This document shows positions 1,778 through 30,626 of a stretch of DNA of 37,359 bases, piece by piece (the first letter of the stretch is position 1; each line of letters starts with the position of its first letter). The notes beneath the pieces were generated by a model. The model searched no databases and was not told where the DNA came from. It worked only from the letters and a program-made list of their open reading frames with translations. The position numbers were made by a program, and so were the translations under genes. This stretch comes from Blastopirellula sediminis (lineage in GTDB: Bacteria > Planctomycetota > Planctomycetia > Pirellulales > Pirellulaceae): assembly GCF_020966755.1 (NCBI RefSeq), contig NZ_JAJKFT010000008.1, positions 1 through 37,359 of the forward strand, given 5' to 3'.

Positions 1778-3709
1778 TCATTGTTCAATCTCGTTCGTTT
1801 TCGGTTGAAACTTGTAGCGAGGATGTTTGTGTCGGCGCATCTTCAGCAAATCAGCGGGAGGTGCGTCGACCGGTACGTACGGTTTTTCGAGTCCCAATTC
1901 GTTCATTCGCGCCTGCAATCGCAGCGCATTTTGGACTGCCGGTTGCGTAATCCTAAGTTCGGCCGCGATTTGCCGCTGGAATTTGCCGGCGGCTCGCAGG
2001 GCAACGATCTCTTCGCGATGTTGCTCACGCTGAACCGGGTCGAACAAATCGACTTCCAACGTCCGCGTCAACAACTCGCTGGCCGCCGGAATCTCGCTCA
2101 AGTCGGGGAAAAGTCCCGAGAGACGCAGTTCAAACTTCGCCCGGATGAACAGGGCGCCGCCGTCGCACAGACGAATCGGGAACGCATCGATCCGACGAAT
2201 CAATTGGCGCATCACGCGACTGAGGGCGTAGGGGTCCGAGGCCATCTCCTTCAGCGAGTTCCGCGCGATTTCGCGCACCTCGCTCGCCAACGGAAGTTGC
2301 GGAGCAGCGTCAGGACGTGCGGTCATCTCCTTTAACCGTAACTTCGCGTCGCTAATTTGCTCTTCGCGCTCCGTAATCTTCGCGGCGATCGACGCTGATG
2401 CGTTCCCGCTTGCGATGAACTCAACGAGATTATTCATCTCCCGCTCCAAGCTGGCTATTTCGCGTTCGAGTTTTCCGGTTTGCGTCTTGCGTGCGCCCGT
2501 CAACGCCCAAAACTCAGCCTGAACCGCCTGGTAAAGCGTTTCGGGAAACTCCGGTAACGCTTCGATTTCGTCGTAGACGGCTGTCAAAATCTTTTCCGCA
2601 GCCAGCGTCCCATCAAACGAAGCGCTCTGCCAGCAGGCGTATTCCTTCGCCCCTTTACACATCATGTGATCTTGCTGGCCATGTCCTCCCCAAACGAACG
2701 GATGGCCGCAAATCCCGCAAAACGTCTGCTGACCCGGAAACCGCGTTCGCTTCTTCGGGACGTTAGCCCGAGAATCGCGTCCGTTAACCTTCTTACGGCG
2801 AAACGGAGCATTCCTTTCGTCCAACATCCGAATCAAACGGTCGTACCGATCGGCATCCAGATAGGCGAGATGCGAGCACTCGCGCACCAGCAGTTCTTCC
2901 GGCGGAGCTTTTACCGATACCCGACGCCCAGTCTTGTTGATCCGTTTCGAAATCTTCCGATTCGCCTCCCGCACCCCTTTGAGGATCGGGTTGTGCAGGA
3001 GATTCGAGAGAGTGGAAACGGTCCACTTGTTCGAACGAACATAGCGTCCGGTCGGAACGCCGCTAAGATTCAACCAGTCGACGACTACGGAGTACGACTC
3101 CCCCTTTTCCAGGCGTTCGATCATCTCCGCAATGATTAATTCGGCCTTCGGATCCTTCGTGACCTCAGCGTCCGTCGCACCATGCGACGGTTTGATGTAG
3201 CCATAGGGGACCGTTTTGATCATCCCTTGCCCAAAACGATTCCGTAGGGTACGACGAATTCGCTTCGACGTATCGGCATTGCTGAATTCATGGCGCATCG
3301 TCGCAAAACCCGCCTTGAAACGCCAATCATCCTGGTCGGTATCCAGATCGTCGTTGAGGGTGACGACGCGAACGTCATTATCTTCCGCCAATTCCAAGAA
3401 CGTAATCGCAGCGCTTCGCCGACAGATCCGCCCGAGGTCTTCCGCGATCACTAAATCGCACGTTCTCAACTCAATTGCGTCTTCCAAATCCCGCAGTTCC
3501 CGGCGATCCAGTCGCTCGCCGCTACCTCGACTTTGGATGACTTCGACGACCTTAAATCGGTCAGGCAGATTCTGATCGCACCAACGACGACAGGTCGCGA
3601 CCTGATCATCCAAGGAGCGAGGATCTTGATGCTCCGTACTGATCCGAGCGACGATGAGGACGCGAATTACATTAGCGCTGCCGAAAAAACCCTGTTGATG
3701 ATTCGTCAT
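1778..3709 (-). CDS. Large serine recombinase (site-specific integrase/resolvase family)
   Basis: About 643 residues. The N-terminal resolvase domain carries the catalytic signature VARISTEHQ, with the nucleophile Ser24 and Arg22, and a later arginine-rich patch (EDLGRICRRS) typical of the active site. The 'recombinase' domain follows (GYIKPSHG region). Next come a zinc ribbon around residues 330-360 (CGICG then further Cys residues), a coiled coil around 415-465 (EREIASLEREMNNL) and an unusual C-terminal helix-turn-helix around 573-595 (QRQIAAELRITQPAVQNALR). This matches large serine integrases, which integrate or excise elements between att sites. ATG 3709 is chosen over the upstream ATG at 3781 because GGAG sits seven bases before it and the resolvase fold starts shortly afterwards. 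Confidence 0.92.
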   Translation of the reverse strand: MTNHQQGFFGSANVIRVLIVARISTEHQDPRSLDDQVATCRRWCDQNLPDRFKVVEVIQSRGSGERLDRRELRDLEDAIELRTCDLVIAEDLGRICRRSAAITFLELAEDNDVRVVTLNDDLDTDQDDWRFKAGFATMRHEFSNADTSKRIRRTLRNRFGQGMIKTVPYGYIKPSHGATDAEVTKDPKAELIIAEMIERLEKGESYSVVVDWLNLSGVPTGRYVRSNKWTVSTLSNLLHNPILKGVREANRKISKRINKTGRRVSVKAPPEELLVRECSHLAYLDADRYDRLIRMLDERNAPFRRKKVNGRDSRANVPKKRTRFPGQQTFCGICGHPFVWGGHGQQDHMMCKGAKEYACWQSASFDGTLAAEKILTAVYDEIEALPEFPETLYQAVQAEFWALTGARKTQTGKLEREIASLEREMNNLVEFIASGNASASIAAKITEREEQISDAKLRLKEMTARPDAAPQLPLASEVREIARNSLKEMASDPYALSRVMRQLIRRIDAFPIRLCDGGALFIRAKFELRLSGLFPDLSEIPAASELLTRTLEVDLFDPVQREQHREEIVALRAAGKFQRQIAAELRITQPAVQNALRLQARMNELGLEKPYVPVDAPPADLLKMRRHKHPRYKFQPKTNEIEQ

Positions 3710-4134
3710 CACGAAACTCCGAAAGAGGAGTCCGTCTAGAACGTAGTCGCGTTGGCCCAATGGGACAACAACCTTGATCAATCGCGAGAAACCATGATCA
3801 CAGGCGATAACGAATGATCGCCTTAAAACAATTCCGAGATCAGGACTTACGACCGCAAGTCGTCGCTTTGCACGAACTTACGACATCCCTTTTTCAGAAT
3901 CCCGCTCTCTCCGCTTCCGTCGAAAGCCGTCAACGTAAGTCGTTGCCGGCTTTTATTTTGCGCCGATGGCAAATCGTTTGTCCCCCTCACTGAGACAAAC
4001 ACTGGGACAAATAAACCGGCTTGTCCTCCCCAGTTTGACTGGGTTGGCGGCGACTTCGTCTCCTTTTACCCATCTTCGTCTGCGTCACGCTTCTCCCTGT
4101 TGGTCGTCATGTCGACGAAAGCCAAGTCCAAAAA
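3710..4134. other. Non-coding gap between two recombinase genes, with short repeats; possible att or operator region
   Basis: No convincing gene is present. The stretch holds ACTTACGAC at 3845-3853 and again at 3876-3884 (31 bases apart), with the inverted form CGTAAGT at 3934-3940. It also holds an inverted repeat GTTTGTC (3976-3982)/GACAAAC (3994-4000), and further TTGTCC/GGACAA copies lie between 3978 and 4030. Attachment sites of large serine integrases commonly lie just upstream of the integrase start, and those of tyrosine integrases beside their gene, so this position is where such sites would be expected. That role is inference. Confidence 0.4.
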
Positions 4135-5364
4135 CTACGCGACGTCAAAACTCGAACCTTCCTCGTCGTCGCTTCCGAGGAAGTTGATTTGCTCCATGCG
4201 CCGATGGCTGTCTTCCCGTAGGAGATGCCGATACAGCTGCGTCATTTCCGAATCGCGATGACCGAGCCATTCCAGCAGTTCGGCGTCTCGCGCTCCGTTG
4301 CGATACGCCTCACTACAGAAAAAGTGCCGCAGGCCGTGGACCGTCCCGGACTGAAATCCGATCTCACCAGGGGGCGTCGGAAACTCTTTCGTAAGCGGTT
4401 TGATGATCCGCTGCTGCAGATTCTCCAGCACGCGCCGATCGCTCAGGCGCCCGCCACGCGGACCATGGAAAATGCGCCCATCGGCCTGACGCGGAATCTG
4501 CTGCAAGACCTTGAAAAACTCTACGTGCATCGGCAGCGCACGTCCGCGCTTCCCCTTAATCCGGCGTTCGCTCCCAGTTTGCCGACGCCGCGGTACAGAC
4601 CGCTCATCCGTAATCCGAATGGTACGTACGTCCAGGTCGACATCGCTCCAACGAAGCTGAGCCAGCTCGTTGATCCGCAGCCCCGACGTCGCAAGGCAGG
4701 TGATCACTTGCCCCATCCAAACAAGATCTTCGGTCTCGTTGCAGAACTCGATCATCCTGGCGACTTGGCGCCGCGTGTAGCAAAACGTCGAACTACCGCT
4801 TACCTTCGTCATCTTCAGGAGGAAACGGCAAGCCTGCGGCAGATGTCCCTCTTCCGTTAGCCATTTCGATACCGAGCAGACCATGTTCGCCTCACAGACG
4901 ATCGTTCGGTCTGCGTAGTTCTTCTTGGCCAACATCGCGCCGTAGTCCAGCGTGTTCGCTTTCGAAATCTGCGACCAATACTGCAGCGATTTTTTGGCGC
5001 AGTATTCTTGGTGCTTGTCGCGAACCGACTTGTACCGCTGGACCGTCTTGCGACTGACGCCCCCCAACAACTCCGGCTTCTCGCAGCGCTCGATGTAGAG
5101 CGCCCATCCGGCCTCGATGGTCACGTCCTGGTCGGCGGCGACTGCCGCTGCGTCAATCAGTCCAACTTCAACCGCCTTTGCATGATCAAGCCGCTGTAAT
5201 TGGCGAAAGGCCTCCTCTCGGTCTTTCGTGCCAAGCGACGGCTTTCCAAGCTGATACTTGCTGTTCATGCGACCATCGGCGAAATAAACGCCGGTTGGCT
5301 TACGCCGCAAATACCAGGTGAAGTTTGCGCACACGATCGGCGCATCTTTCGGTTTTCTGGGCAT
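4135..5364 (-). CDS. Tyrosine recombinase / phage-type integrase
   Basis: 409 residues with the full catalytic set of tyrosine recombinases: Arg230 (SGLRINEL), a basic beta-hairpin region near Lys272, His343 and Arg346 (HGLRHFF), His369 (LGHRD) and the nucleophile Tyr378 (QLYRH). The N-terminal part (roughly residues 85-185) looks like a SAM-like core-binding domain, preceded by a short arm region. It would cut and rejoin DNA through a 3'-phosphotyrosine, integrating or excising an element. ATG 5364 has GAGGA five bases upstream. It follows the double-HTH gene by 18 bases, which suggests one transcript with that gene acting as excisionase or regulator. Confidence 0.92.
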   Translation of the reverse strand: MPRKPKDAPIVCANFTWYLRRKPTGVYFADGRMNSKYQLGKPSLGTKDREEAFRQLQRLDHAKAVEVGLIDAAAVAADQDVTIEAGWALYIERCEKPELLGGVSRKTVQRYKSVRDKHQEYCAKKSLQYWSQISKANTLDYGAMLAKKNYADRTIVCEANMVCSVSKWLTEEGHLPQACRFLLKMTKVSGSSTFCYTRRQVARMIEFCNETEDLVWMGQVITCLATSGLRINELAQLRWSDVDLDVRTIRITDERSVPRRRQTGSERRIKGKRGRALPMHVEFFKVLQQIPRQADGRIFHGPRGGRLSDRRVLENLQQRIIKPLTKEFPTPPGEIGFQSGTVHGLRHFFCSEAYRNGARDAELLEWLGHRDSEMTQLYRHLLREDSHRRMEQINFLGSDDEEGSSFDVA

Positions 5365-7507: not shown

Positions 7508-9262
7508 ATGAATCAGAATCTCTCTTCGTTTATTTGGTCGGTCGCCGATCTGCTCCGCGGCGACTACAAGCAGTCGGAATACGGCCGCGTTATTCTTCCC
7601 TTTACCGTCCTTCGCCGCCTCGACTGCGTGTTGGAGTGGACCAAGGTCGCCGTTCTAAAGGAGTACGACAAGCGGAAAGCGGCCGGGGTCAATCCCGAGC
7701 CGTTCCTCCGGAAGAAATCAAAACAGCACTTTTACAATACCTCTCCCCTCGACCTGAAGAAGCTCATGGGGGACGCGGATAACATTCGCGAGAACCTCTT
7801 CTCCTACGTCGAGGCCTTTTCGGCCGACGTTCGCGACATCTTCGACTGCTTCGACTTCCACAACCAGGTGCAGCGGCTCGACAAGGCCAATCTCCTTTAC
7901 CTGGTGACCGAGAAGTTCGCCAATATCGATCTCCATCCCAACGTCGTCTCCAACGAGCAGATGGGGCACGTCTTTGAAGAGCTGATTCGCAAGTTCGCCG
8001 AAATCTCCAATGAGACCGCCGGGGAGCACTTCACGCCGCGGGAAGTGATTCGCCTGATGGTCAACTTGCTCTTCATCGAAGATGACGAGGCCCTCACCAA
8101 GCCGGGCGTCGTCCGCTCCCTCTACGATCCGACCGCTGGGACTGGGGGCATGCTCTCGGTCGCTGAAGAGCATCTCGCCCAGCTCAATCCTGACGCGCGG
8201 CTCGTCATGTACGGGCAAGAGCTGAATGCCGAGTCGTACGCCATCTGCAAGGCCGACATGCTGATCAAAGGGCAGGACGTCAGCCAGATCGTCCTCGGCA
8301 ACACCCTGGCCGACGACGGGCTCGCCGGGCAGCAGTTCGACTACATGCTTTCCAATCCGCCGTTCGGCGTCGAATGGAAGAAGATCCAGAAGGCGATCCA
8401 GGACGAACACAAGCAGCAAGGCTACAACGGCCGCTTCGGTCCCGGGCTACCGCGGGTCAGCGACGGTTCGCTCCTCTTCCTAATGCACCTGATCTCGAAG
8501 ATGCGCCCCGCAAAGGATGGCGGCAGCCGGTTTGGGATCGTGCTCAACGGTTCGCCTCTTTTCACCGGCAATGCCGGCAGCGGCGAAAGCGAGATCCGCC
8601 GCTACGTGCTCGAGAACGACCTGCTGGAAGCGATCATCGGGCTGCCGACCGACATGTTCTACAACACCGGGATCAGCACCTACGTCTGGATCGTCACCAA
8701 CCGCAAGCCGAAGCATCGCCAGGGGAAGGTGCAACTGATCGACGCCAGCGGCCTGTGGCAGAAGATGCGGAAGAGTCTCGGCAGCAAGCGAAAAGAATTG
8801 TCGGACGACCATATCGAGCAAATCACCAAGCTGTTCGGCAAAGCGAAAGCAGCCAGCACGACCGACGCCGACGGCCAACAGGTCCCGATCAGCCGGATCT
8901 TTAAGAACCAGGACTTCGGCTACCAGACGATCACCGTCGAACGCCCCGAGCGCGACTCCAAGGGAAACGTCGTCAAAGAGACGAAGGGAAAACGCAAAGG
9001 ACAACCGAAGCCCGACAGCAGCCTCCGCGATACGGAAGACGTCCCGCTGGCCGAAGAGATCGAAGCCTACTTCGAGCGGGAAGTGTTGCCCCATGTGCCG
9101 GACGCCTGGATCGATCACGAGAAGACGAAGACCGGCTACGAAATCCCCTTCAACCGCCACTTCTACGTCTTCAAACCGCCGCGCGATCTGGCGGAAATTG
9201 ACGCCGAGCTGAAGGTGGTAACCGATCGGATTGTGGAGATGATTGGGGGGCTTTCGCAGTGA
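7508..9262 (+). CDS. hsdM: Type I restriction-modification system, DNA methyltransferase subunit
   Basis: 584 residues. An N-terminal HsdM helical domain (about 1-150) precedes a class gamma N6-adenine methyltransferase domain. SAM-binding motif I is DPTAGTGGM near residue 207 and the catalytic motif IV is NPPF near residue 283, both intact. With HsdS it methylates adenine in a bipartite recognition sequence; with HsdR it forms the restriction complex. The C-terminal part (about 430-530) is charged and lysine-rich. It is the first gene of the hsd operon, and its TGA overlaps the GTG start of hsdS by four bases. The Shine-Dalgarno is weak. Confidence 0.95.
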
Positions 9263-10587
9263 GTTTTCCCCAATACGCAGATTACAAGGAAAGTGACGTC
9301 GCATGGCTTGGGGAAATCCCGCGTTCATGGGAAGTACGTCGTCTTGGTTCGCTGTTTCGTCAGGTGGCAGAGGAAGGAAGTGAAGGCTTGCCAATACTCT
9401 CGGTCTCGATACATCATGGTGTTTCTGACCGCGAATTTGACGACGAAGAACTCGATCGAAAAGTAAATCGCAGCGATGATCGATCTAAGTATCGAAAAGT
9501 TCAACCAGGCGATTTGGTTTACAACATGATGCGCGCTTGGCAAGGAGGGTTCGGAGCTGTATCGGTTGAAGGCATGGTCAGTCCCGCATATGTAGTTGCG
9601 CGGCCTTTATCGGACATGTCTACTCGGTTTATCGAGCTTCTATTGCGCACCCCGCAAGCGATTGTAGAGATGCATCGGCATTCGCAAGGTGTTACAGACT
9701 TTCGACTGCGACTCTACTGGGAAGAATTCAAATCTATAAAGATTCTGTTTCCCCCGCTGGATGAACAGAACGCTATTGTGAACTTCCTCGACCGCGAGAC
9801 CGCCAAGATCGACGCGCTCGTCGCCGAGCAGCGGCGGCTGATCGAGCTGCTCTCCGAAAAACGCCAGGCGGTCATCAGCCACGCCGTGACCAAGGGGCTC
9901 GATCCGAACGTGAAGATGAAGCCGTCGGGGATTGAGTGGATTGGTCTCCTGCCCGAACATTGGAGCACGCCTCCACTGTTTGCGAGGTACTATGCGGTAT
10001 TGGGAAAGATGGTCGACGAGCAAAAGGCGACCGGAAAGTACCCGATTCGTTATCTGCGCAACGCAGATGTAAATTGGGATTCGATAAACACTCACGATCT
10101 CCCTGTGATCGATATTGAACCGGGAGAGATCGAGCGATTTACAGTCTCACCAGGAGATCTCCTAATCTGTGAGGGTGGCGCCGGCATCGGTCAAACGGCG
10201 ATATGGGACGGTCAACCGGCGCGATTCGCGTTCCAAAAGGCATTGCATCGCCTTCGTCCGTGGAAGGCGAACAAGGAAAACCCAAGGTTCTTCTATTACT
10301 GCATGAGGTACGTTGTTGAAACTGGATTCGTGCTGGCGGGAGGGACGGCCACCATACCGCACCTGACTGGAGAAGCACTTCGAAAGTACCGTTTTCCAAC
10401 ACCACCGTTCAAAGAACAGAATCAGATCGTCCAATTTCTCGACTGCGAAACAAGTAGATTTGATCAACTGCAATCGGAGGCAGAGCAAGTGATCTCTCTC
10501 CTCCAAGAACGCCGCACAGCGATTATCTCCGCGGCAGTCACCGGCAAGATCGACGTACGCGAATTCGCTTGTCAGGAGGCGTCATGA
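9259..10587 (+). CDS. hsdS: Type I restriction-modification system, specificity subunit
   Basis: 442 residues with the usual two half-sites. Target-recognition domain 1 spans about 1-160. A first conserved helical spacer follows ([17 protein letters not shown]), then domain 2 (about 215-375, beginning [13 protein letters not shown]) and a second helical spacer ([17 protein letters not shown]). The two spacers are clearly repeats of each other. The protein decides which sequence is methylated or cut. It starts at a GTG overlapping the hsdM stop. The base composition of domain 1 (about 9380-9740) is visibly more AT-rich than the spacer, consistent with exchange of recognition domains by recombination. 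Confidence 0.95.
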
Positions 10588-11255
10588 ACCTCCCCCAAGC
10601 TTCCGCACAAAGCGTCGCGAGAGAACTCAAGAAACGCCATTTCCCAGGACAGCACGTCCTTCCCTACAACCGCTTCAGTGTTGAGAACTCTACGCATTGG
10701 TGGCTTTCGCCAACCGGCGATAAGGGGGCGTTTCGCTACGGCAAGTATATCTTGACGACCGACGGCGGCTGGCTGAAAGAGGGGACGCTTTTTTGCGGGT
10801 GGAACATCGAAAAGGGAATGCTCCATTCCGGCTCGTGGCCGGCCAGTAACGTCATGAACAAGTCGTGGCATTGGCACAAATTCTTGCTGGTCGCCAACGA
10901 GCCGCTGGTGCAGATGATGGACGAAGCCCGAGCAGCGACCGATGGCGATCTACAACTGGTCGTTTGTGCCGGCATGCCGGGGGCCGAAACCGCAACGGTC
11001 GTGATGAGCGTCAACGGATCAAGACTAAAGCCAGCTGCGTATCAGGCCAGCGATGGAATCCTGGTCGACTTGGCCCGCAGCGCCGATATGGCGACGTTCG
11101 TCGACGCGCTGCGAAAACTGGATGGAGCGCCGACCGCGTGGCATTGGATCGACATCCGGATCGGGCAAGCGTTTACTCTCGATCGTAATGGTCCGGATCA
11201 ACTGGACGATTGCGCGAGGATGCTCAAGCCTTTTCAGCGATGGGTACATTCGTAA
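10584..11255 (+). CDS. Unknown protein inside the type I RM operon (accessory gene A)
   Basis: 223 residues, soluble, no signal peptide. It is rich in Trp and aromatic residues in the first half (HWWLSP, SWHWHKF) with an alternating beta/alpha look later. I do not recognise the family or any catalytic motif. The start at ATG 10584 overlaps the hsdS stop by four bases and has AGGAGG just upstream, so it is translated together with HsdS; an upstream in-frame TTG at 10569 is less likely. Placement between hsdS and hsdR suggests an accessory or anti-phage partner, but this is inference from context only. Confidence 0.75.
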   Translation: MNLPQASAQSVARELKKRHFPGQHVLPYNRFSVENSTHWWLSPTGDKGAFRYGKYILTTDGGWLKEGTLFCGWNIEKGMLHSGSWPASNVMNKSWHWHKFLLVANEPLVQMMDEARAATDGDLQLVVCAGMPGAETATVVMSVNGSRLKPAAYQASDGILVDLARSADMATFVDALRKLDGAPTAWHWIDIRIGQAFTLDRNGPDQLDDCARMLKPFQRWVHS

Positions 11256-11306
11256 TGGGCGATACTCAGCGATTACGCCAAACTCGGACTTGGGGGCAAC
11301 CGCGTC

Positions 11307-12080
11307 ATGGCTGAAACGCCGGACATTACCGATTCCTGGTGCCAGCATATTCCTCTGCTGCATCGGATCGTGTCAGGAGCAACGCCGGCGTCGCAGTTTC
11401 CGGAGCCTGCCCGCACGACGGAGCTTTTTGCCGCCTGCGCCGTTTGGGAAACGCTGCACTACGCGCTGAAATACCTCCTCGGTTGGCAACGGCCGGGCGA
11501 CGGACTGGCCTGGTGGTATGGCGCCGGCAAGCCGGTTGAAGATTCACCACTGTTAGGTATCGTGTCGGAAATCTGGGATCGCGCTGGGGAGCTTGATTAC
11601 TACGCTGCCTACGTTTGGCGAATCGAGAGTCCTGACCATGCGGTGTATACATCCGATCTCGCCAAATCGATGGCCGCTGTCTCGTCGAATTCGGATGAAC
11701 AATGGTGGCGAGACCTGCTACGACGGAAAGATACGACTTGGTTAAATCCGTTCGACGGCGGAGGCAACTCGCTCCATCTCGGCCATAGCGACTGGTTTGG
11801 AAGCGACGAGCCAGAAACCGATCGGGCCGAGTTGTATCACAATCCAAAGACCCGCCGCGCGGTTCTGGTCGTCAACCAGATCGGCGCCTGGCGACACGAC
11901 CTTAAAAGGGCCGAGTCGCAGCTTCCCGACCTGGGAGATCGCTCCTGGCACGTGCGGGTGGTCGATCCGCGCTACGGCTGCCTGGGAACGTTCCGCCGGA
12001 GTCGCGTCACCGGACTTTGGTTTCAGGGGAAGCATTCGATACATTTGCGTGGGAATCCATCAAAACCCGATTCGCCGTAA
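11307..12080 (+). CDS. Unknown protein inside the type I RM operon (accessory gene B)
   Basis: 257 residues, soluble, with many aromatic residues (ETLHYALKYLLGWQ, GLAWWYGAG, NEIW-like stretches) and a C-terminal beta-rich basic part (VRVVDPRYGCLGTFRRSRV). No signal peptide, membrane segment or known catalytic motif was found. It starts 52 bases after accessory gene A and ends 30 bases before the methyltransferase-like gene, so it belongs to the same transcript. A G-rich stretch (GGGGG) lies about 10 bases before ATG 11307 as a possible ribosome-binding site. The family is unknown to me. Confidence 0.7.
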   Translation: MAETPDITDSWCQHIPLLHRIVSGATPASQFPEPARTTELFAACAVWETLHYALKYLLGWQRPGDGLAWWYGAGKPVEDSPLLGIVSEIWDRAGELDYYAAYVWRIESPDHAVYTSDLAKSMAAVSSNSDEQWWRDLLRRKDTTWLNPFDGGGNSLHLGHSDWFGSDEPETDRAELYHNPKTRRAVLVVNQIGAWRHDLKRAESQLPDLGDRSWHVRVVDPRYGCLGTFRRSRVTGLWFQGKHSIHLRGNPSKPDSP

Positions 12081-12110
12081 TTCCGGCGAACTATCATTAG
12101 GTAAACCGAT

Positions 12111-12962
12111 ATGGGGCAAGACCGCAACTCGGGCAACAAAGGCGATCAACTAAAGCACTGCCTTTTGGCGGAGACTTTGGGGAATTGCGGAGATTGGTCG
12201 AACATTACCTATGCCGAGACTCATGCAGGCGCAGGAGTTTATAGTCAGACGAAACAAGAGGAAGAAGGAGCGACGCATATTGCTGACCTTAGGGCCGACA
12301 TCTTGAGCGTTGGCAAGTTAGATCCTTCGAGCGCCGGGAGTCGGTATACGAATCTTTTAGAAGATTGGTGGCAAGCCGAATCAAATCAAAAACTCTATCC
12401 CGGAAGCGTTTGCCAAGCACTACTGCAAACAGCGTCCATGAATGAGAACTGCGGCATTGAGGAAGTTCAAGTCCGAGTTACGGAGGCATGCCCGCATACT
12501 CATGAAAGACTGACGGAAGCATTAGCCCCATTCGGATACCAAGCCAGGCATGATGCGTTCCAACACAATCTGGACTGGCTTACCGAAAACGACGACCTGT
12601 TCCTGTTGATCGACCCTTTTACTTATACGACAAACCGAGACGCTCTAGACATAGGGCACATCGATTTGGAAACGCTCAGCAAGTTCGTATCCGCTTGCCT
12701 AAACAAATCTCGATGTATAGTAGGTTTCTGGTGTGCGATGGGGCGAAAACAGCCTGAGGGGAAGACTCTTCAAACGCAGTTCAATTCCGAACTTCGGCAA
12801 CTTGCGGAACGACAAGACGCACTATTTCGTTATTTCAGCTATGGTCAGTATTCTATCGCCTGGATTGGTATCGCTGGTGGTCGGCCTGCAATCGAGCAAA
12901 TTCCCCGCAAAGCCAATTGGAAGCGGACATGGCTTGAGAAAGTAATCAAAGAGTCAGAATAG
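12111..12962 (+). CDS. RlmJ-like methyltransferase homologue inside the type I RM operon
   Basis: 283 residues resembling the 23S rRNA A2030 methyltransferase RlmJ in order and spacing of motifs. GNKGDQLKH near the N-terminus matches the RlmJ GN-AD-LKH segment. THAGAGVY near residue 36 is the SAM-binding motif. LYPGS lies about two fifths along, and LLIDPFTY near residue 166 stands where RlmJ has LIDPPYE. The catalytic DPPY is therefore changed to DPFT. Activity may be altered or lost, or the substrate may differ. It ends four bases before hsdR. Its codon use is more AT-rich than hsdR, which hints at separate origin. The RlmJ relation is from motif memory, not a search. Confidence 0.65.
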   Translation: MGQDRNSGNKGDQLKHCLLAETLGNCGDWSNITYAETHAGAGVYSQTKQEEEGATHIADLRADILSVGKLDPSSAGSRYTNLLEDWWQAESNQKLYPGSVCQALLQTASMNENCGIEEVQVRVTEACPHTHERLTEALAPFGYQARHDAFQHNLDWLTENDDLFLLIDPFTYTTNRDALDIGHIDLETLSKFVSACLNKSRCIVGFWCAMGRKQPEGKTLQTQFNSELRQLAERQDALFRYFSYGQYSIAWIGIAGGRPAIEQIPRKANWKRTWLEKVIKESE

Positions 12963-12966: not shown

Positions 12967-15900
12967 ATGAGCCTGCACACCGAAGACAAATTCGAGATCG
13001 CCATCTGCGAGCATCTGGCCGAAAACGGCTGGTCGTACGCCGAGCAGGACGCCGCTGGGTATGATCGGGCGCTGGCGCTCTATCCGGCCGATGTGATCGC
13101 CTGGGTGAAGGAGACGCAGCCGGACGCCTGGGAGCGGCTAGAGAAGAATCATGGCGCCGCGGCCGAGCAGGCTCTGTTGAAGCGGCTGCGCGACATGCTG
13201 AACCAGATGGGGACGCTTGATCTGTTGCGGGTCGGCTTTGATGTGCTGGGGCTGAAGCAGCCGGTGAAGATGGCGCAGTTCAAGCCGGCGCTGGCGATGA
13301 ACCCCGATATCTGGCAGCGGTACCAGGCGAATCGCCTGCGGGTGGTGCGGCAGGTTCGCTATTCGCAGCATAACGAGAACAGCATCGACCTGGTCTTCTT
13401 CCTGAACGGCATCCCGGTCGCGACGGCCGAACTGAAAACCGACAACACGCAAAGCGTCGACGACGCGGTCAAGCAATACAAAAAGGATCGCGACCCCAGC
13501 CCCAAGGGGCAGACGGCCGAACCGCTGCTGTCGTTCCCGTCGGGGGCGCTGGTCCACTTTGCGGTGAGCAGCAGCTTGGTTCGGATGACGACGCGGCTGG
13601 CGGGGATGAAGACGCAGTTCCTGCCGTTCGATCTGGGAGATGACGGCGCGGCGGGGAATCCACTGAACCCGGACGGATACCGGACGGCGTATTTGTGGGA
13701 ACAGGTCTGGCAGCGTGATAGCCTGCTGGAGATTTTGGCCCGCTACATGGTCGCCGAGCGGGACAAGAAGAAGCAGATCACGCGGCTGATCTTCCCGCGG
13801 TACCATCAACTGAACGTTACGCGGCGGCTGCAAGCGGCGGTGCTGGAGGAAGGGCCGGGGCGAAAGTATTTGATTCAGCATTCGGCCGGCTCAGGGAAGA
13901 CCAACTCGATTGCCTGGACGGCCCACTTTCTGGCGGACCTGCACGACGCCGACAACCAGAAGGTGTTCGATACGGTGTTGGTCGTTTCCGACCGGAAGGT
14001 GATCGACGGGCAATTGCAGGACGTCATCTACGGCTTTGAGCGGACCGCCGGCGTGGTAGCGACGATCAAAGGGGACAAAGGGAGCAAAGCGGCGGAACTG
14101 TCCGAGGCGCTCTCCGGCACGAAAAAGGTAGTGGTCTGCACGATCCAGACTTTTCCGTTTGCCCTGGAGAAGGTGCGCGAACTGGCGGCGACCGAGGGGA
14201 AGCGGTTCGCGGTGATCGCCGACGAAGCGCACAGCAGCCAGACCGGCGAAGCGGCGTCAAAACTGAAGCAGGTGCTATCGGCCGAAGAGCAAGAGTCGCT
14301 CGCCGACGGCGGCACGGTCAGCAGCGAAGATATCCTAGCGGCGGAAATGGCAAGCCGGGCCAGCGACAAGGGGATCACCTACGTCGCGTTCACGGCGACG
14401 CCGAAGTCGAAGACGCTGGAGCTGTTTGGGCGCGTGCCTGATCCGACGCAACCGGCGTCGAAGACGAACCTGCCGGAGCCGTTTGACGTCTACTCGATGC
14501 GCCAGGCGATCGAGGAAGGTTTTATTCTTGACGTGCTGCAAAACTACACGTCGTACAAGGTCGCCTTCAAACTAGCGAGCGCCGGGCAGTACTTTATCGA
14601 CTCGGAAGTCGACCGGGGCGCCGCGATGAAGGGGCTGATGAACTGGGTGCGATTGCACCCCTACAACATCGCCCAGAAGGTGCAGATCGTCGTCGAACAT
14701 TACCGCGAGAACGTCGCCCACCTGCTCGACGGCAAGGCGAAAGCGATGGTCGTGGTGAGCAGCCGCGTCGAAGCGGTCCGCTGGCAACTGGCGCTCTGCA
14801 AGTATATCGCCGATATGGGCTACCCGCTGAAGTCGCTGGTGGCGTTCTCTGGCGAAGTGGACGACAAGGAATCGGGGCCGGAGCCGTTCAAGGAAGCGAG
14901 CAGTGGGCTGAACCCGGGGCTGAACGGCCGCGATATTCGGGAAGCGTTCAAAGAGGACCAGTTCCAGATCCTGTTGGTGGCGAACAAGTTCCAGACCGGC
15001 TTCGATGAGCCGCTGCTGTGCGGGATGTACGTCGACAAGCGGCTGGACGGCATCCAGGCAGTGCAGACGTTGTCGCGACTGAATCGTTGCTATCCGGGGA
15101 AGGATACGACGTACGTCCTCGACTTCATCAACGAGCCAGACGACATCCTGGCGGCGTTCAAGACGTACTACACGACAGCGGCCCTGTCGGACGTGACCGA
15201 CCCGCAATTGATTTTGGACCTGCGAACCAAGCTGGATGCGATGGGGTACTACGACGAGTTTGAAGTCGAGCGGGTGGTCAATGTGATGCTTGACCCGAAA
15301 GCGAAGCAGAAGCAACTGGAAGCGGCGATCGTGCCGGTCGCGGATCGGCTGCTGAAACGTTACACCGCGGCGCAAGACGCCTATCGAGCGGCAAAGGAAG
15401 CTGGCGACGACAAGGCCGAAGCCGATGCGAAGGATACAATGGACGCCCTGTGGATGTTCCGGACCGACATCATGACCTACGTCCGGGCCTACACCTTCCT
15501 GTCGCAGATCTTCGACTACGGCAACACCGACTTCGAGAAACGGGCGATTTTTTACAAAGCCCTGTCGCGACTCCTGAAGTTCGGCCGAGAACGAAGCGGC
15601 GTCGACCTCTCCGAGATCACCCTAACCCACCACCACGTCCGCAACCGCGGCAAACGGAACCTGGCCCTCTCCACCGAAGACGCCCCCACGCTCAAACCGA
15701 TGACAGAAGCCGGCAGCGGCGCCCTGCAAGAGAAGCAAAAGGCGCTGATGAGCGAGATCATCGACCAGTTGAACACCCTGTTCGGCAGCGACATGACGGA
15801 AGGGGATCAGCTCTCGTTCCTGAACACTCTGGTCGAAAAGACGCTGGAATCCGAAGTCCTGCAAATGCAGGCCGCGAACAACTCGAAAGAGCAGTTCGCC

Positions 15901-16074
15901 AACTCGCCGGACCTGAAAAGCGAGTTTATGGACGCAATTATGGAGAGCATGGATAGCCAGCAGGAACTCAGCCATCGAGCACTCAGCTCGCCGCAGATTC
16001 TAGGGGGACTATTGCTGTTGGCGATGGAGAAGCTGGATCTGTATGAGAAGCTGAAGACGCGAGCGGCGGGGTAG
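12967..16074 (+). CDS. hsdR: Type I restriction-modification system, restriction/translocase subunit
   Basis: 1035 residues. The N-terminal PD-(D/E)xK-type nuclease core includes AELKT near residues 153-157. A superfamily 2 helicase motor follows: Walker A SAGSGKT near 305-311, DEAH near 418-421, and motif III FTATPKSKT near 475. Helicase domain 2 contains QTGFDEP. A long helical C-terminal region contacts the methyltransferase. The enzyme pumps DNA using ATP and cuts far from unmethylated sites. The start codon follows the methyltransferase-like gene by four bases and has no clear Shine-Dalgarno, so coupling to that gene is likely. It closes the operon. Confidence 0.96.
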   Translation: MSLHTEDKFEIAICEHLAENGWSYAEQDAAGYDRALALYPADVIAWVKETQPDAWERLEKNHGAAAEQALLKRLRDMLNQMGTLDLLRVGFDVLGLKQPVKMAQFKPALAMNPDIWQRYQANRLRVVRQVRYSQHNENSIDLVFFLNGIPVATAELKTDNTQSVDDAVKQYKKDRDPSPKGQTAEPLLSFPSGALVHFAVSSSLVRMTTRLAGMKTQFLPFDLGDDGAAGNPLNPDGYRTAYLWEQVWQRDSLLEILARYMVAERDKKKQITRLIFPRYHQLNVTRRLQAAVLEEGPGRKYLIQHSAGSGKTNSIAWTAHFLADLHDADNQKVFDTVLVVSDRKVIDGQLQDVIYGFERTAGVVATIKGDKGSKAAELSEALSGTKKVVVCTIQTFPFALEKVRELAATEGKRFAVIADEAHSSQTGEAASKLKQVLSAEEQESLADGGTVSSEDILAAEMASRASDKGITYVAFTATPKSKTLELFGRVPDPTQPASKTNLPEPFDVYSMRQAIEEGFILDVLQNYTSYKVAFKLASAGQYFIDSEVDRGAAMKGLMNWVRLHPYNIAQKVQIVVEHYRENVAHLLDGKAKAMVVVSSRVEAVRWQLALCKYIADMGYPLKSLVAFSGEVDDKESGPEPFKEASSGLNPGLNGRDIREAFKEDQFQILLVANKFQTGFDEPLLCGMYVDKRLDGIQAVQTLSRLNRCYPGKDTTYVLDFINEPDDILAAFKTYYTTAALSDVTDPQLILDLRTKLDAMGYYDEFEVERVVNVMLDPKAKQKQLEAAIVPVADRLLKRYTAAQDAYRAAKEAGDDKAEADAKDTMDALWMFRTDIMTYVRAYTFLSQIFDYGNTDFEKRAIFYKALSRLLKFGRERSGVDLSEITLTHHHVRNRGKRNLALSTEDAPTLKPMTEAGSGALQEKQKALMSEIIDQLNTLFGSDMTEGDQLSFLNTLVEKTLESEVLQMQAANNSKEQFANSPDLKSEFMDAIMESMDSQQELSHRALSSPQILGGLLLLAMEKLDLYEKLKTRAAG

Positions 16075-16324: not shown

Positions 16325-16635
16325 TTTTGCCATGATACCTGAATATGCGGCAGGAAGTCTTCCGATGAACGAACACTTCGACGAACACTCAGGATGCTCT
16401 TTTGACATGCACGTCGCCGAGGGCTATCCCAATACGGAGACGTGCTGACGTCAGTTCACTGGCTTGGGCTTGTACGGTTCCATCTGGCGCCAGACGCAAA
16501 GAGAATTCGGCGGAAATGCGAGGTCTGAGGGGCTAGAATGAATTTCCCGACGCGTCATGCTTCCTCGGGATTGTTGGATTACCTACACTTGATCGACTGG
16601 TCTCGACCTGAATGCCCGAAGATCAAGGAACTGCA

Positions 16636-19005
16636 ATGACGCAGGAAACAGACGTCAATCTGCTTTTTGGCTTGATCGCAATGCAGAGCGATCTGATCGA
16701 TATGCGGCAGTTTGTAGATGCCTGTACGCTGTGGGGATCGCGCAAAGACGAGTCGCTGGCGGACATTCTGGTCCAGCAAAAATGGCTGCTCCCTGAAGAC
16801 AAGCAGCATGTCGACTACCTGATTAAACGCCGCATGCAGAAGGCCGGTGGGGACGTCAAGAAGTCGCTCTCCAGTATGCCCAGCGACGTGAAAGCTGTGC
16901 TCGAAAGTCTCGGTGATGATGACATCCTGCAGACGCTTGGCGCGGTGCGGCAAGGCGACCGGATTACGATGACCGGCGTCATCTCGGCCGATTCGCTTTC
17001 TGACGAACGGATCACGCGGCGCGGCTTGCATTCCACTGGCGGGATCGGCCATGTCTGGCTGGCCTACGATAAGGTCCTCGACCGCGAAGTTGCTTTGAAA
17101 GAACTCAAAGCGAATCAGGTCGGGTCGGAGCTTAACCGGCAGCGATTCTTCCGCGAGGCCCAGATTACCGCCCAGTTGACGCATCCAGGCCTGGTACCAG
17201 TATACGACTACGTCGAGGACGATCGGGGCACCTACTACACGATGAAATTCGTGAAAGGCCGTACATTTGCGGAAGTTATTTCCGACTATCACGACTGGCG
17301 ACGACAGCACAGTAAAACGGGCGTCTCCAGTCGCTTGGTACAGCTACTGAATCAGTTTGTCAGCATCTGTAATACGATTGCCTTTGCTCACTCGCGCCTC
17401 GTCATTCACCGCGATCTCAAAGCGGAAAACGTCATTGTCGGTGATTTCGGCGAAGTCGTCGTCTTGGATTGGGGCCTGGCCAAGAGGCTGGACGAAGGGG
17501 AATCCCCCAATGACCAGAAAGCCGTCGTTTCCGAAATGACGCTCGCCCCGGGCGAAGCACGTGAGACGAAGACGCCGTCCCAGACCATGCAGGGGGATCG
17601 ACTTGGTACGCCAGCCTATATGTCTCCGGAACAGGCGCGAGGGGCAGTCGACCTTGTGGACCAGCGAAGTGATGTGTACGGGCTGGCGGCAATTCTGTAC
17701 GAATTGCTGGTTGGTGAGCCGCCGTTTCTTGGCACGAGTATTGTCGCCGTGCTCGATAGCGTCATTCACGATAGCCCCAAGCCGCCCAGCGAGTGCGTAG
17801 CAGGAATTCCGCGGGAGCTGGAACTTGCCTGCTTGCGAGGGCTTGCCAAGAAGCGAGACGATCGTCAGCAGTCCGCATCGGAGTTGGGAGAGGAGATTCA
17901 GACATGGATTGCGGAACGTGCCGAGCGCAAGCGGACCGAGCAGGAACGCGAGCGGTTCTTCAACCTATCGCTTGACTTGCTGACCATCATCGACACCAAG
18001 GGTGGACTGACGCAGACGAACCCGGCCTGGGAAACGCTGCTCGGCTGGACGGAGGACGATCTTCACACGAAATCGGTCTGGGATCTAATCGATCCGGAAG
18101 ACCACCCGCGGGCGATGAAGAACCACGAAAGAATCCTGTCGGGTGAGTCGCTATCAGAAATCGAGTATCGATGTCGCTGCAAGGATGGTAGCCGACGCTG
18201 GATCTTATGGAATGCGAAGCTAATTCCGGGAGAGTCGTCGATTTATCTCGTCGGGCGTGATATCACCGAACGGAAACAGGCCGAGCAGACCTTTCACGAG
18301 CTACTTGAATCGGCGCCCGATGCGATGGTCGTCATCAATGACGCCGGGAAAATCGTTCTCGTCAATTCTCAGTTGGAACGACTATTCGGTTACCCGCGTG
18401 AAGAATTGCTTGGCGGCCCTATCGAAGTACTTGTCCCCAAGCAGTTTCGCGTTAATCACCCGAAGAATGTGACGGCGTATATGGCAGCGCCAAGCGTCCG
18501 GCCAATGGCATCCGGGCTGGATCTGATGGGAGAGCGAAAGGATGGCACAGTCTTTCCCGTGGAAGTCAGTCTGAGCCCTGTCGAAACAGAACAGGGGCGT
18601 CTGGTTTCCTGTGCCGTTCGCGATACGACGGAACGCAAGAAGGAACGGCAAGAGCTGCAAGCGCTTCTCGAATCGGCGCCGGATGCGATGGTAGTGGTAG
18701 ACGTGAACCGCCGGATCAAGTTCGTTAATTCGCAAACCGAACGAATCTTTGGTTTCGGTAGATCCGAACTCCTGGGAGAAGTTATCGAGATTCTCATGCC
18801 GGAACGCTTCCGTGCTGGTCACCCCGAGAAGTTCGCCTCCTTCGTCAACGATTGTCACGTGCGTCCCATGGGGGCTGGCCTTAAGCTGTTTGGCCGGCGC
18901 AAGGATGGTTCCGAGTTCCCCGTCGAAATCAGCCTCAGCCCGGTAGAAACGGACGACGGACTGTTGATCTCATGTGCGATTCGGGAAGTGAGTCATCGAG
19001 AATAG
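16636..19005 (+). CDS. Ser/Thr protein kinase with three C-terminal PAS domains
   Basis: 789 residues. After an N-terminal helical segment (1-125) comes a Hanks-type kinase domain: a glycine-rich loop near 129-137 (STGGIGHVW), the ATP-binding lysine near 154 (VALKEL), the catalytic loop HRDLKAEN near 258, and a metal-binding DWG near 278 instead of DFG, as is common in planctomycete kinases. SPEQARG follows. Three PAS domains follow at about 441-550, 553-670 and 673-788; the last two are near-duplicates. There is no histidine kinase or other output after them, so the PAS units probably sense a signal for the kinase. ATG 16636 has AAGGA six bases upstream and is preferred to ATG 16612. Confidence 0.93.
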   Translation: MTQETDVNLLFGLIAMQSDLIDMRQFVDACTLWGSRKDESLADILVQQKWLLPEDKQHVDYLIKRRMQKAGGDVKKSLSSMPSDVKAVLESLGDDDILQTLGAVRQGDRITMTGVISADSLSDERITRRGLHSTGGIGHVWLAYDKVLDREVALKELKANQVGSELNRQRFFREAQITAQLTHPGLVPVYDYVEDDRGTYYTMKFVKGRTFAEVISDYHDWRRQHSKTGVSSRLVQLLNQFVSICNTIAFAHSRLVIHRDLKAENVIVGDFGEVVVLDWGLAKRLDEGESPNDQKAVVSEMTLAPGEARETKTPSQTMQGDRLGTPAYMSPEQARGAVDLVDQRSDVYGLAAILYELLVGEPPFLGTSIVAVLDSVIHDSPKPPSECVAGIPRELELACLRGLAKKRDDRQQSASELGEEIQTWIAERAERKRTEQERERFFNLSLDLLTIIDTKGGLTQTNPAWETLLGWTEDDLHTKSVWDLIDPEDHPRAMKNHERILSGESLSEIEYRCRCKDGSRRWILWNAKLIPGESSIYLVGRDITERKQAEQTFHELLESAPDAMVVINDAGKIVLVNSQLERLFGYPREELLGGPIEVLVPKQFRVNHPKNVTAYMAAPSVRPMASGLDLMGERKDGTVFPVEVSLSPVETEQGRLVSCAVRDTTERKKERQELQALLESAPDAMVVVDVNRRIKFVNSQTERIFGFGRSELLGEVIEILMPERFRAGHPEKFASFVNDCHVRPMGAGLKLFGRRKDGSEFPVEISLSPVETDDGLLISCAIREVSHRE

Positions 19006-21974: not shown

Positions 21975-23219
21975 ATGTTGAGGTTTGCAGGACCGATCGC
22001 CGCTTCGGCAGTCCTTTTTATTCTAGCCGGTTGCGGATCATCCCCTCCGGCGTCGCCGCCGCTTCGTCCGGTGCGAACGTTACAGGTTGGGAAACTTTCG
22101 GCCGTCGACAGCCGCGAGTTTCCCGGTCGCGCCAAAGCGAAAGATGAGGTCGAATTGTCGTTTCAGGTCGCCGGCCCCCTGATTTCGCTCCCGGTCGATG
22201 TGGGGGCTAACGTCAAAAAGGGAGATGTGATCGCCGTCATCGATCCGCGCGACTTTGAAGCGGCGCTGGCGAACAGTCAGGGCAACTTGGAACGGGCCAA
22301 GGCGAATCTGCTAGCGATGGAACGGGGCGCGCGGCCGGAAGAAATTGAACAACTGAAAGCGGCGGTTGATCAAGCGGTCGCATCCTACGACCAGGCGGCC
22401 GCAGAACATGCCCGCAATGAAGTGCTTGTCGTGTCCAAGACGGTATCGCAATCTGATTTTGATATTACTCTGGCAAGAAAACAGCGAACCGAAGCCGAGG
22501 TCAAAAACGCCAAAGAAGCGTTGAACATCGGCATGACCGGCGCCAGAGAAGAAGATCTGAACGCCAAGAAGGCGGAGATCCGCGCCTTGGAGGCGGCCGT
22601 CGCCGGCGCCAAAAACCAACTCGACTATTCCACGTTGACCGCTCCTTTCGACGCGGAAGTCGCCGCAAAATACGTCGAGAACTTTCAGTCGGTCCAGCCC
22701 AAGCAGAACATTGTCCGGCTCCTAAACACTTCCAAGATCGAAATCACCATTCAAGTTCCCGAAACGCTCATCTCGCTTGTGCCGCAGGTCAAGAGGGTCG
22801 CTTGTCGCTTCGACGCCTTTCCGGATCAAGAGTTCTTTGGCAAGGTGACCAAGATCGGCAGTGAAGCGTCGCAAACGACACGCACCTATCCGGTGACTAT
22901 CGAGATCGATCAGCCGGAAGATGTTCGTATTTTGCCCGGCATGGCGGCGACGGTTCGCCACTCTCCGGAAGAGACCAACGGCGACGCGCCAACCGCCATG
23001 ATCGTGCCCGCCAGCGCCTTGTTTACCCCCACCGACGCCCCCGGCAGTTTTGTCTGGATTGTCGATCCAAGCTCGAAGACGGTAGCCCGCCGCGAAGTGA
23101 AGACCGGAAAACTGACTCCCGTAGGCGTAACGATCGACGAAGGATTGGCCGGCGGCGACCTGGTCGTAATATCGGGCGCCAACATGCTTCGTGACGGCCA
23201 AGAGGTCAAGCTGCCGTGA
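21975..23219 (+). CDS. RND efflux periplasmic adaptor (membrane fusion) lipoprotein
   Basis: 414 residues. A lipoprotein signal with lipobox LAGC (Cys20) anchors it to a membrane. Then come the first half of a lipoyl/barrel-sandwich domain (GANVKKGDVIAVID), a long alpha-helical hairpin of about 110 residues (about 85-200), the second lipoyl half (TLTAPFDAEVAAKYVE) and beta-barrel and membrane-proximal domains to the end. This is the AcrA/MexA family order. It links the RND permease to an outer-membrane channel, but no TolC-type gene is present here. Its stop lies about 80 bases before the permease start, on the same strand. Confidence 0.92.
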   Translation: MLRFAGPIAASAVLFILAGCGSSPPASPPLRPVRTLQVGKLSAVDSREFPGRAKAKDEVELSFQVAGPLISLPVDVGANVKKGDVIAVIDPRDFEAALANSQGNLERAKANLLAMERGARPEEIEQLKAAVDQAVASYDQAAAEHARNEVLVVSKTVSQSDFDITLARKQRTEAEVKNAKEALNIGMTGAREEDLNAKKAEIRALEAAVAGAKNQLDYSTLTAPFDAEVAAKYVENFQSVQPKQNIVRLLNTSKIEITIQVPETLISLVPQVKRVACRFDAFPDQEFFGKVTKIGSEASQTTRTYPVTIEIDQPEDVRILPGMAATVRHSPEETNGDAPTAMIVPASALFTPTDAPGSFVWIVDPSSKTVARREVKTGKLTPVGVTIDEGLAGGDLVVISGANMLRDGQEVKLP

Positions 23220-23297
23220 TTGTGCGGACCATCGTGCAGCGATGGTGACGACGGATCGAATAGTAGCGAACGCAAAACAACGAGAACGGGAACATCG

Positions 23298-26200: not shown

Positions 26201-26384
26201 CGGGACAACGGTGCTAGGCGTGCTACCGATGCTGCAGGACGTATTTTGGGTCGCACTGGCGGTGACGATCTTCTTTGGTTTGATCGTCGGGACGCTGTTA
26301 ACCATGGTCATGGTCCCCACGCTCTACGCGCTGCTGTACCGCATTCCCGCTCCCAATGGTCAGGAGTCCGGGAATGGCGAGTAA
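23298..26384 (+). CDS. RND-family efflux permease (AcrB/MexB-like)
   Basis: About 1028 residues, the normal length of the family. The first membrane helix starts near residue 10, and the porter region includes TTYPGATAQQVE. The transmembrane helix 4 signature GMMVDNAIVV has a single Asp-Asn in place of the AcrB Asp-Asp pair. Two large periplasmic loops alternate with clusters of membrane helices, and the second cluster ends with GMMIKNVVVLLDEV. It exports compounds in exchange for H+ or Na+. ATG 23298 (MNLAALAIRQRAV) is chosen because an earlier in-frame extension from 23220 is arginine-rich and unlike the family. Its last 11 bases overlap the ntpB start. Confidence 0.93.
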   Translation: MNLAALAIRQRAVTYFGVFLVIAGGIFCYFQLGQLEDPEFSVKTAVITTTYPGATAQQVELEVTDRIETKLQEMSEVKNVYSNSRPGLSIIKVDIKSSYWSDRLPQVWDVLRKKVADVEPTLPSGAGKPKVGDDFGYVFGFLLAVSSDGFSYAELEKYVKDMRKELSVVKGVARVDFWGVQDKRIYLEVSSSQLAELNLTPAQIIDTLQGQNLVVDSGEVDFQSQRIRIAPTGEFRDPVEIGDLAIAGVVDGRDEIIRIRDFATVKTGYIDPPIHLLRHNGRQAIALAIAPASGENVVEVGERIDNRINELLADLPIGINVERISWQSDQVSESIRAFMVSLIEAVAIVLALLAVTMGIRPGIIIGISGLVFPILGTFVVMAIVGIDLHRISLGALIIAMGMMVDNAIVVTDGIMVRIAQGMDREKAAIEAAGGPAIPLLGATIVACMAFFPIFASSYDTGEYAGSLFTVVLISLLLSWVFCQTVAPLLCIAMLPGPKSGEAIRDPYQSNFYQLFRNLLGWTIRYRVLFLASMVGLLFFSVFAFRWVPQLYFPDSSRLQVMIDYWAPEGTRIQQTSANVARIEEFVRQQDATVSVSTFIGKGPPRFYLPVSAEDPYSSYAQIIINTKDLDGVNQLVADTDAWVQENVPEAMVRVRKYAVGAFDDWKIEARFSGPANADPETLRSLAEQGAKILRDTPLAKDVRVNWREPVQVLSPQFNEERARWAGVSREDLSRTMLRASEGVVVGSYRQEDDVIPIVARNVEAERERAATSLDELLVTPRLSTHSVPVSQIIDGVQLKWEDPLIWRWDRRRAITVQCSPNGVTAPTLRNEIVEEFNAIELPPGYRLDWDGEYWSAKQSQEALAPGMVPALVVMLFILVALFNGFRPMLICIGVIPFVMIGITGGLLLTQTPFGFIALLGAMSLSGMMIKNVVVLLDEVNVNLTKGLSPYHAVVEAAVSRLNPVVNAAGTTVLGVLPMLQDVFWVALAVTIFFGLIVGTLLTMVMVPTLYALLYRIPAPNGQESGNGE

Positions 26385-30198: not shown

Positions 30199-30626
30199 TA
30201 TTGGGGTGGATCGGGCTCTATGCGCCGTTGGCGCTCGGAGCGATCGGCAGCATGATCGGCTGCTTACGTGGAGGCATGGCGGCTTGCGGCGCCATGATGG
30301 AAGTGGAAAGCGGGTACGGACGTTACGTCGGCGTTGCGGCGATGCCCTCGTCCCAAACGATCTACGGCATCGTCGTTACCATGGCGCTGCCGGCGGTGAT
30401 CTCCGCCGCCAATTCACCCGGCATCTTCGCTCTGGGCATCTTGTCGGGAATGGCCCTACTAGTCAGCGCCTACGCCCAAGGAGTCGCCTGTGCATCGGCG
30501 ATCAACGCCTCCAAGAACAAGCCGGAAGTCTTCGGCATCTCGCTGGCGCCGGCTGCGTTGATCGAAGGCTTTGCGGTATTTGCGTTCGTATTTGCCCTCG
30601 TCCTGGCGGGACGACTTCCTGAGTAA
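30189..30626 (+). CDS. ntpK: V-type ATPase subunit K (rotor c-ring proteolipid)
   Basis: 145 residues in four membrane helices, i.e. two fused hairpins, as in E. hirae NtpK. The ion-carrying carboxylate is Glu126 (LIEGFAVF). Other residues align with known Na+ ligands of NtpK: Met52 for Leu61 (backbone), Ser55 for Thr64, Gln56 for Gln65, Tyr59 for Tyr68, Gln97 for Gln110. The first hairpin lacks its own carboxylate, as expected. Na+ transport is inferred from these ligands and not proven. AAGG lies about 8 bases before ATG 30189, inside the end of ntpI. Confidence 0.94.
   Translation: MEVVLGWIGLYAPLALGAIGSMIGCLRGGMAACGAMMEVESGYGRYVGVAAMPSSQTIYGIVVTMALPAVISAANSPGIFALGILSGMALLVSAYAQGVACASAINASKNKPEVFGISLAPAALIEGFAVFAFVFALVLAGRLPE

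Follow-up and report, generated by a model that had tools for sequence, protein, structure and literature searches.

In the planctomycete Blastopirellula sediminis, a 37,359-nucleotide (nt) stretch of DNA, hereafter the window, carries a type I restriction-modification (RM) operon in which hsdS and hsdR are separated by three additional genes, here called X1, X2 and X3. Operons of this lineage very probably have an accessory pocket at that position, with X1, X2 and X3 as separately acquired cargo docked within it. A sequence-only reading of the window had suggested that the three genes are made together with the RM enzyme and may extend it, with conservation of the operon left as an inference; in the genomes compared here it is the slot that recurs, with changing contents.

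Three genes embedded in a type I restriction-modification operon

The operon and the genes embedded in it are laid out as follows, with expectation values (E) for the family matches.

7508..9262, + strand: hsdM, DNA N6-adenine methyltransferase subunit (Pfam N6_Mtase, E 6.9e-62, and HsdM_N, E 6.8e-29; PADLOC MTase_I, E 7.8e-277)
9259..10587, + strand: hsdS, specificity subunit (Pfam Methylase_S, E 2.7e-18; PADLOC Specificity_I, E 9.6e-122)
10574..10579, + strand: ribosome-binding-like AGGAGG within the last hsdS codons, 4 nt ahead of the X1 ATG (read directly)
10584..11255, + strand: X1, 223 amino acids, from a family without known function
11307..12080, + strand: X2, 257 amino acids, from a rare uncatalogued family, between X1 and X3
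12111..12962, + strand: X3, 283 amino acids, an orphan of low GC with a weak RlmJ/TcmP-type class I methyltransferase resemblance
12967..16074, + strand: hsdR, restriction/translocase subunit (Pfam SWI2_SNF2, E 1.1e-19, HSDR_N, E 4.1e-17, and T1R_D3-like, E 5e-12)

Judged from sequence, hsdM, hsdS and hsdR are genuine, and the coordinates together with these Pfam-identified flanks confirm the three same-strand genes between hsdS and hsdR that the sequence-only reading had described. Its finer details also held: X1 starts at 10584 within a 4-nt overlap with hsdS (ATGA) and behind the AGGAGG at 10574-10579, while X3 ends at 12962, four bases ahead of the hsdR start at 12967. Spacers of 51 nt (X1-X2) and 30 nt (X2-X3) separate the embedded genes. 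Under a simple composition model, applied to one frame each and left uncorrected, the chance of frames this long was 2.3e-4 for X1, 1.6e-4 for X2 and 4.0e-7 for X3. We take X1 and X2 to be real genes because homologues were found elsewhere; X3 is a putative gene by its open frame, its fit to the operon and a weak resemblance. Two of the proteins had been called unrecognised, which agrees with our scans: X1 matched no Pfam, NCBIfam, PADLOC or PHROGs family at E 1, and X2 matched no Pfam, NCBIfam or PADLOC family at that threshold and gave a single weak PHROGs match (E 0.063).

The hsdS-hsdR slot holds different genes in relatives

HsdR relatives were collected in 198 class genomes and on plasmids, and the gene neighbourhood was read for 27 of them (20 and 7, respectively). 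Four of the 27 had no visible hsdS. The remaining 23 showed both flanks; five of these had nothing in the slot and 18 had other genes there, none of which was X1, X2 or X3. In the empty operons (L053, L058, L064, L069 and L075, of which L064 is fragmentary) hsdS overlaps hsdR; L060 was counted as filled, though its hsdS border is unclear. The same-genus genome G266, whose HsdR orthologue is 81% identical to that of the window, has PDC-S18 plus PDC-S11 in the slot in place of X1-X3. The cargo was identified as follows.

By Pfam/PADLOC:
L050: PDC-S18 plus PDC-S11
L051: putAbiC plus PDC-S18
L052: dCMP deaminase
L054, L056: DUF4357 with GIY-YIG
L057, L063: PIN
L059: Fic
L066: AAA ATPase
L067: PLD-like
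L068: HEPN
L073: AbiEii-like
By plasmid annotation:
L070: VapC
L071: DUF5655
L074: GIY-YIG

Over the slots the cargo families also include DUF4268, given with PDC-S11, and DUF5655, given with PDC-S18; the PLD and AbiEii matches and one of the two GIY-YIG matches score under Pfam's cut-off. The cargo of L055, L060 and L072 gave no Pfam match. In L055 a 459-amino-acid slot gene (L055:8480-9859) matched neither Pfam nor PADLOC and is further cargo of unknown type.

A second set comprised 12 plasmid loci, from which L106 (no hsdS annotated beside hsdR) and L111 (same proteins as L075) were set aside. Seven of the remaining ten slots were empty and three were filled, by a 102-amino-acid gene (L108), a DUF262 gene (L110) and a nucleotidyltransferase set (L114). 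Taking the two sets together, cargo was present in 21 of 33 slots and was in no case X1-X3. As read from these gene orders, the slot is a real, rotating accessory pocket. Separately, RhuM-type and Abi-family genes lie between hsdM and hsdS at L075:5597-6655 and L107:3660-4634, a possible second pocket.

The trio is not conserved

When 245 phylum genomes and 198 class genomes were searched with all three proteins, no second genome in either sample held two of X1-X3, and a conserved trio was rejected on this ground. The proposal of a conserved three-gene extension was therefore not borne out. As to whether homologues occur inside or outside RM loci, X2 and X1 each recur singly, partly inside RM loci, and the trio occurs nowhere else in these samples. 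Production alongside the RM enzyme fits the arrangement. Since relatives have toxin-type, nuclease-type and defence-candidate genes at this position, the three genes could plausibly add a layer of defence.

The three proteins might nevertheless constitute one dedicated module (for example, a sensor, an effector and a methyltransferase) that acts with the RM enzyme or extends it. The common strand, short spacers and tight flanks are what such a module would look like, and embedded two-gene systems that need both proteins exist, as described for TgvAB of Vibrio cholerae in the available text of PMC11411939. However, no two of the three genes occur together in another genome of either sample, X2 has other neighbours in the three other intact loci described below, and X3 differs in its GC content, so that we regard a three-protein module as improbable.

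X2 recurs beside defence-type genes

X2 was found in four of the 245 phylum genomes (its own, G191, G193 and, as a half copy, G227) and in two of the 198 class genomes (its own and G227); searches of the groups to which the Sandaracinus and Actinomycetota genomes described below belong returned one genome out of 282 and one out of 98, in each case the query genome. A pattern scan of one genome per species for 84,980 species yielded four confirmed contigs, two of which were those already found as G191 and G193. We dropped G191 as a second X2 locus, its 5205-nt contig being 100% identical to a Sandaracinus contig. This leaves three intact, distinct loci besides the window. In a Planctomycetota metagenome-assembled genome (MAG; L013), the relative lies directly behind hsdS, with a 1-nt overlap, in an operon of R-M-S order with an EcoEI-type HsdR. 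A second relative, in a Sandaracinus MAG (L016), closes a series of genes that match mad2 (E 3e-101), mad5 (E 4e-42), mad6 (E 4e-126), mad7 (E 2e-155) and mad8 (E 7e-42), 61 nt behind mad8, the link to MADS, the methylation-associated defence system, being taken from PADLOC model names; the phylum of this copy is unsure because the identical contig sits in a Planctomycetota-binned genome, and one bin must be wrong. The third, in an Actinomycetota MAG (L018), overlaps by 4 nt the gene that precedes it, which is PDC-S11-like (E 2e-5) and in which a nuclease-like motif was read. Just beyond the MADS-like operon, L016:12423-14976 holds CRISPR-like repeated sequence.

Aligned, the X2 proteins have a conserved core of PDLG-R-SWHV followed by GTFRRSR-TGLWF-G-H--H, from which L018 deviates in the first part. 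Two X2 relatives matched none of the PADLOC models; the structure model of X2 was weak (predicted local distance difference test, pLDDT, 60), with no PDB match at E below 0.001, and we claim no fold. Neither X2 nor X3 was found on plasmids. Searches of viral contigs and further pattern scans, with the phage collection left out, gave no confirmed relatives of X3, X2 or X1. The neighbours of X2, spread over at least two phyla, suggest a defence role, and among the three genes such a role, judged from gene neighbourhood, is best supported for X2.

X1 and X3

X1 had four matches in the 245 phylum genomes, namely its own, G019, G192 and G235; the last (E 9e-4) was dropped as spurious, as it falls inside an 862-amino-acid frame of another protein. 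A profile search of the 198 class genomes returned its own genome and G281. Altogether six copies are known to us, the window included, and one relative lies within an hsdS-hsdR interval of Deinococcus grandis. The D. grandis gene behind this copy was considered as an X2 relative and ruled out, having no similarity to it. One X1 relative matched no PADLOC model, and the structure model of X1 (pLDDT 74) gave no PDB match at E below 0.001, so that no fold is claimed here either.

The description of X3 as methyltransferase-like was upheld in part: X3 alone shows the resemblance, weakly, and its scores lie below family cut-offs. Against TcmP (TIGR04474) it reached E 0.01 and 15.8 bits, where the curated cut-off is 53, and a TcmP family search of 89 genomes including this one gave no match in the B. 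sediminis genome (G000). Up to E 10 there were six PDB matches, five named RlmJ and one (2oo3) otherwise, with a best E of 0.41 and all over the N-terminal third; in Pfam there was no match at E 1, and the RlmJ family score was not reached. X3 contains ETHAGAG (motif I, the glycine-rich S-adenosylmethionine (SAM) motif), YPGS and the acidic-Pro motif DPFT. RlmJ has the catalytic motif DPPY, which is absent from X3, where DPFT is read. Six TcmP proteins have DPFG or DPYG in four cases, DPCG and DPIK at the acidic-Pro motif. Comparison by hhalign of X3 with a six-row TcmP profile, made for this one pair only, gave a probability of 47.5% and E 0.00019, and placed DPFT on the DPFG of the first TcmP row. 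On the tests made, X3 is by sequence a member of neither the RlmJ nor the TcmP family; it is probably a relative of class I methyltransferases with an altered catalytic motif.

Among the 245 phylum genomes, X3 occurred in its own genome only. Eight of the 198 class genomes matched at E 0.1 including its own, the other seven being short and at chance level. A candidate relative in G352 (E 0.016) was rejected, the match covering 39 residues in a gene neighbourhood that was unrelated and free of RM genes; the six other rows were matches of 33-57 residues.

X3 could be an added DNA or RNA modification enzyme that shields the host from the RM enzyme or marks the nucleic acid of phages, which would be compatible with the pocket. 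The weak RlmJ/TcmP resemblance does span both motif I and the acidic-Pro motif. Yet the scores fall under the family cut-offs, the motif expected of RlmJ is missing and those read in TcmP proteins differ, and protection is already provided by HsdM; we consider this role unlikely.

The end of hsdS as a possible docking junction

Junctions were tabulated for 20 of the 24 loci of the first set, window included, with L060 and L066-L068 left out. In 16 of the 20, hsdS ends in ATGA or GTGA, and in 12 of these 16 GGAG occurs within the preceding 15 nt. The gene that starts at the 4-nt overlap is hsdR in all five empty operons and the first cargo frame in ten of the 15 filled ones, window included, three of these ten frames being short (L057, L059 and L063). 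Among the filled exceptions, L055 has the overlap without a long frame, L051 has TGATG, and L052, L070 and L073 differ. We infer that the last hsdS codons often hold a ribosome-binding site that couples whichever gene follows. Such a site, combined with a 4-nt start/stop overlap, would serve hsdR in operons without cargo and, in many of those with cargo, the first cargo gene, so that cargo would be translated along with the RM enzyme and the operon left unbroken.

As for how cargo arrives, in a D. grandis plasmid operon, whose HsdM, HsdS and HsdR were identified by Pfam, hsdS and hsdR are separated by the X1 relative together with a DUF4268 gene. This block is flanked by copies of the hsdR 5' end of about 410 nt that are 91% identical (L006:6414-6820 and 10322-10739), and the operon contains a second repeat, of 80%. 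In L059, the first 52 codons of a cargo gene of GIY-YIG type remain ahead of Fic, with 39 of the first 42 residues identical. The D. grandis repeat and the L059 remnant are both consistent with cargo being replaced through recombination in the neighbouring hsd genes, which is probably how insertion takes place. At the window's own pocket there were no border repeats, the longest shared word being 6 nt, equal to that in shuffles.

Weighing the pocket reading

Several observations weigh against the reading of the interval as a docking pocket for defence cargo. The ten of 15 filled junctions and the related counts are not all independent, because L054/L056 and L057/L063 have common cargo. In the clade with 45-48% HsdR identity the 4-nt overlap is not the rule, and six of its nine second-set loci with both flanks visible are empty and three filled (the tenth, L112, is a closer Roseomonas copy, at 60%). 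GC content at third codon positions declines from 0.82 in hsdM and hsdR to 0.68 in X1, 0.65 in X2 and 0.50 in X3, which speaks for a mosaic, but composition alone is no proof of separate arrival, because that of hsdS itself is also low (0.55). Contexts of X2 are few because X2 is rare; no RM gene adjoins the C-terminal half copy in G227, and in the window X2 touches X1 and X3 and no hsd gene. The methyltransferase of the L016 operon scores better with MTase_II (E 3e-278) than with mad2, and because of this, and because mad1, mad3 and mad4 were not identified, we call that operon only MADS-like. Finally, X1 is not confined to RM loci, because copies occur outside them: an orphan with transposases and an N-6 methylase in its vicinity on a D. 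wulumuqiensis plasmid, two copies within one genus adjoining hydrogenase-maturation genes (in one case AIRS-type, NUBPL-type and HypA neighbours by Pfam), and a stand-alone copy, 57% identical, in a same-genus genome.

These X1 copies, alone or beside hydrogenase-maturation genes, and the orphan status of X3 are what one would expect if X1-X3 were passive hitchhikers without a defence role, tolerated since their insertion keeps hsdR reading; a general gene influx is also likely because recombinase and integrase genes lie near the RM locus. Against this, the pocket in relatives often contains toxin-type, nuclease-type and defence-candidate families (a statement of presence, not of enrichment over background), and each of the other three intact copies of X2 follows genes of defence type. 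We therefore think it fairly unlikely that all three are mere passengers, and favour the accessory pocket. In that pocket, cargo may form a second antiphage layer, either independent of RM or triggered by it. The best candidate for this layer is X2, given that relatives of it follow a second hsdS, a MADS-like operon and a PDC-S11-like gene; X1 would be an auxiliary protein, and X3 is probably a SAM-binding, methyltransferase-like protein that arrived recently.

Relation to known systems

The window has the features of an embedded accessory locus, namely extra same-strand genes between hsd genes and a slot that is empty or differently filled in relatives. Antiphage genes inside type I RM operons are already published, according to the available parts of two reports. 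TgvAB, a type IV restriction pair resembling GmrSD, is embedded in the type I RM operon of V. cholerae Vibrio pathogenicity island 2 (VPI-2), and protects alone, and better with the whole cluster (PMC11411939). The window resembles it in that its type I RM operon also contains genes without a known function, but X1-X3 had no GmrSD-type match in family scans. In enteropathogenic Escherichia coli (EPEC), the DarTG2 toxin-antitoxin pair lies between hsdS and hsdR on an island with a dedicated repressor, RptR, and its authors propose an hsdS-hsdR hotspot (PMC12255303). The position is identical, whereas the window's cargo consists of unknown families.

With MADS the likeness is that an X2 relative ends a run of genes matching mad2, mad5, mad6, mad7 and mad8. 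The window operon, in contrast, consists of HsdM, HsdS, X1-X3 and HsdR with no mad7 or mad8 among the matches listed; X1-X3 matched no PADLOC families and HsdR eight, none of them mad, and among the matches listed for HsdM, MTase_I (E 7.8e-277) scores far better than mad2 (E 2.9e-29). PDC-S11 and PDC-S18 both occupy this same pocket in G266, whereas X1-X3 match none of the PADLOC 2.0.0 models at E 1. Genes embedded in defence operons, and the PDC families, have reportedly been the subject of a general survey by Payne et al. in 2024, to which the PDC model names in PADLOC are presumably linked. X3 shares the N-terminal layout and the glycine-rich SAM motif of RlmJ and TcmP, and differs in scoring below the family cut-offs, in its catalytic motif and in its RM context. 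As far as we have seen, the X2 family with its neighbours, the junction comparison and the D. grandis repeat are new; they were not found in the literature searched, which is weak evidence of absence.

Surroundings of the operon

Upstream of the RM operon, a resolvase/recombinase gene (1778-3781, - strand) and a phage-type integrase gene (4135-5364, - strand) suggest a mobile island. Downstream of hsdR, the gene at 16612-19005 (+ strand) encodes a protein kinase domain and PAS domains, and its best PADLOC match is PD-T4-6 (E 1.9e-68), with mad6 weaker (E 2.6e-44). Resistance-nodulation-division (RND)-type efflux genes and V/A-type ATPase genes (window 21975-26384 and 28333-33791, + strand) are ordinary neighbours. 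Elsewhere in the same genome, G000:C2:67527-67670 holds a broken fragment of the HsdR C-terminus, 69% identical.

What the pocket may mean

It is possible, though we hold this only tentatively, that X2 founded a new, portable family of defence proteins, acting as a shared effector or sensor, and that the hsdS 3' end is an evolved docking site. If so, X2 would plug into recognition-based immune operons of the type I RM, MADS-like and PDC-S11-like kinds in at least two phyla, and genes would be swappable at the hsdS 3' end while remaining coupled to the RM enzyme. According to the available text of the TgvAB and DarTG2 reports, genes within RM operons can be genuine antiphage systems. The locus described here offers a testable rule, with the hsdS stop region as docking site, and scanning this single slot across genomes would be a cheap route to new defence genes.

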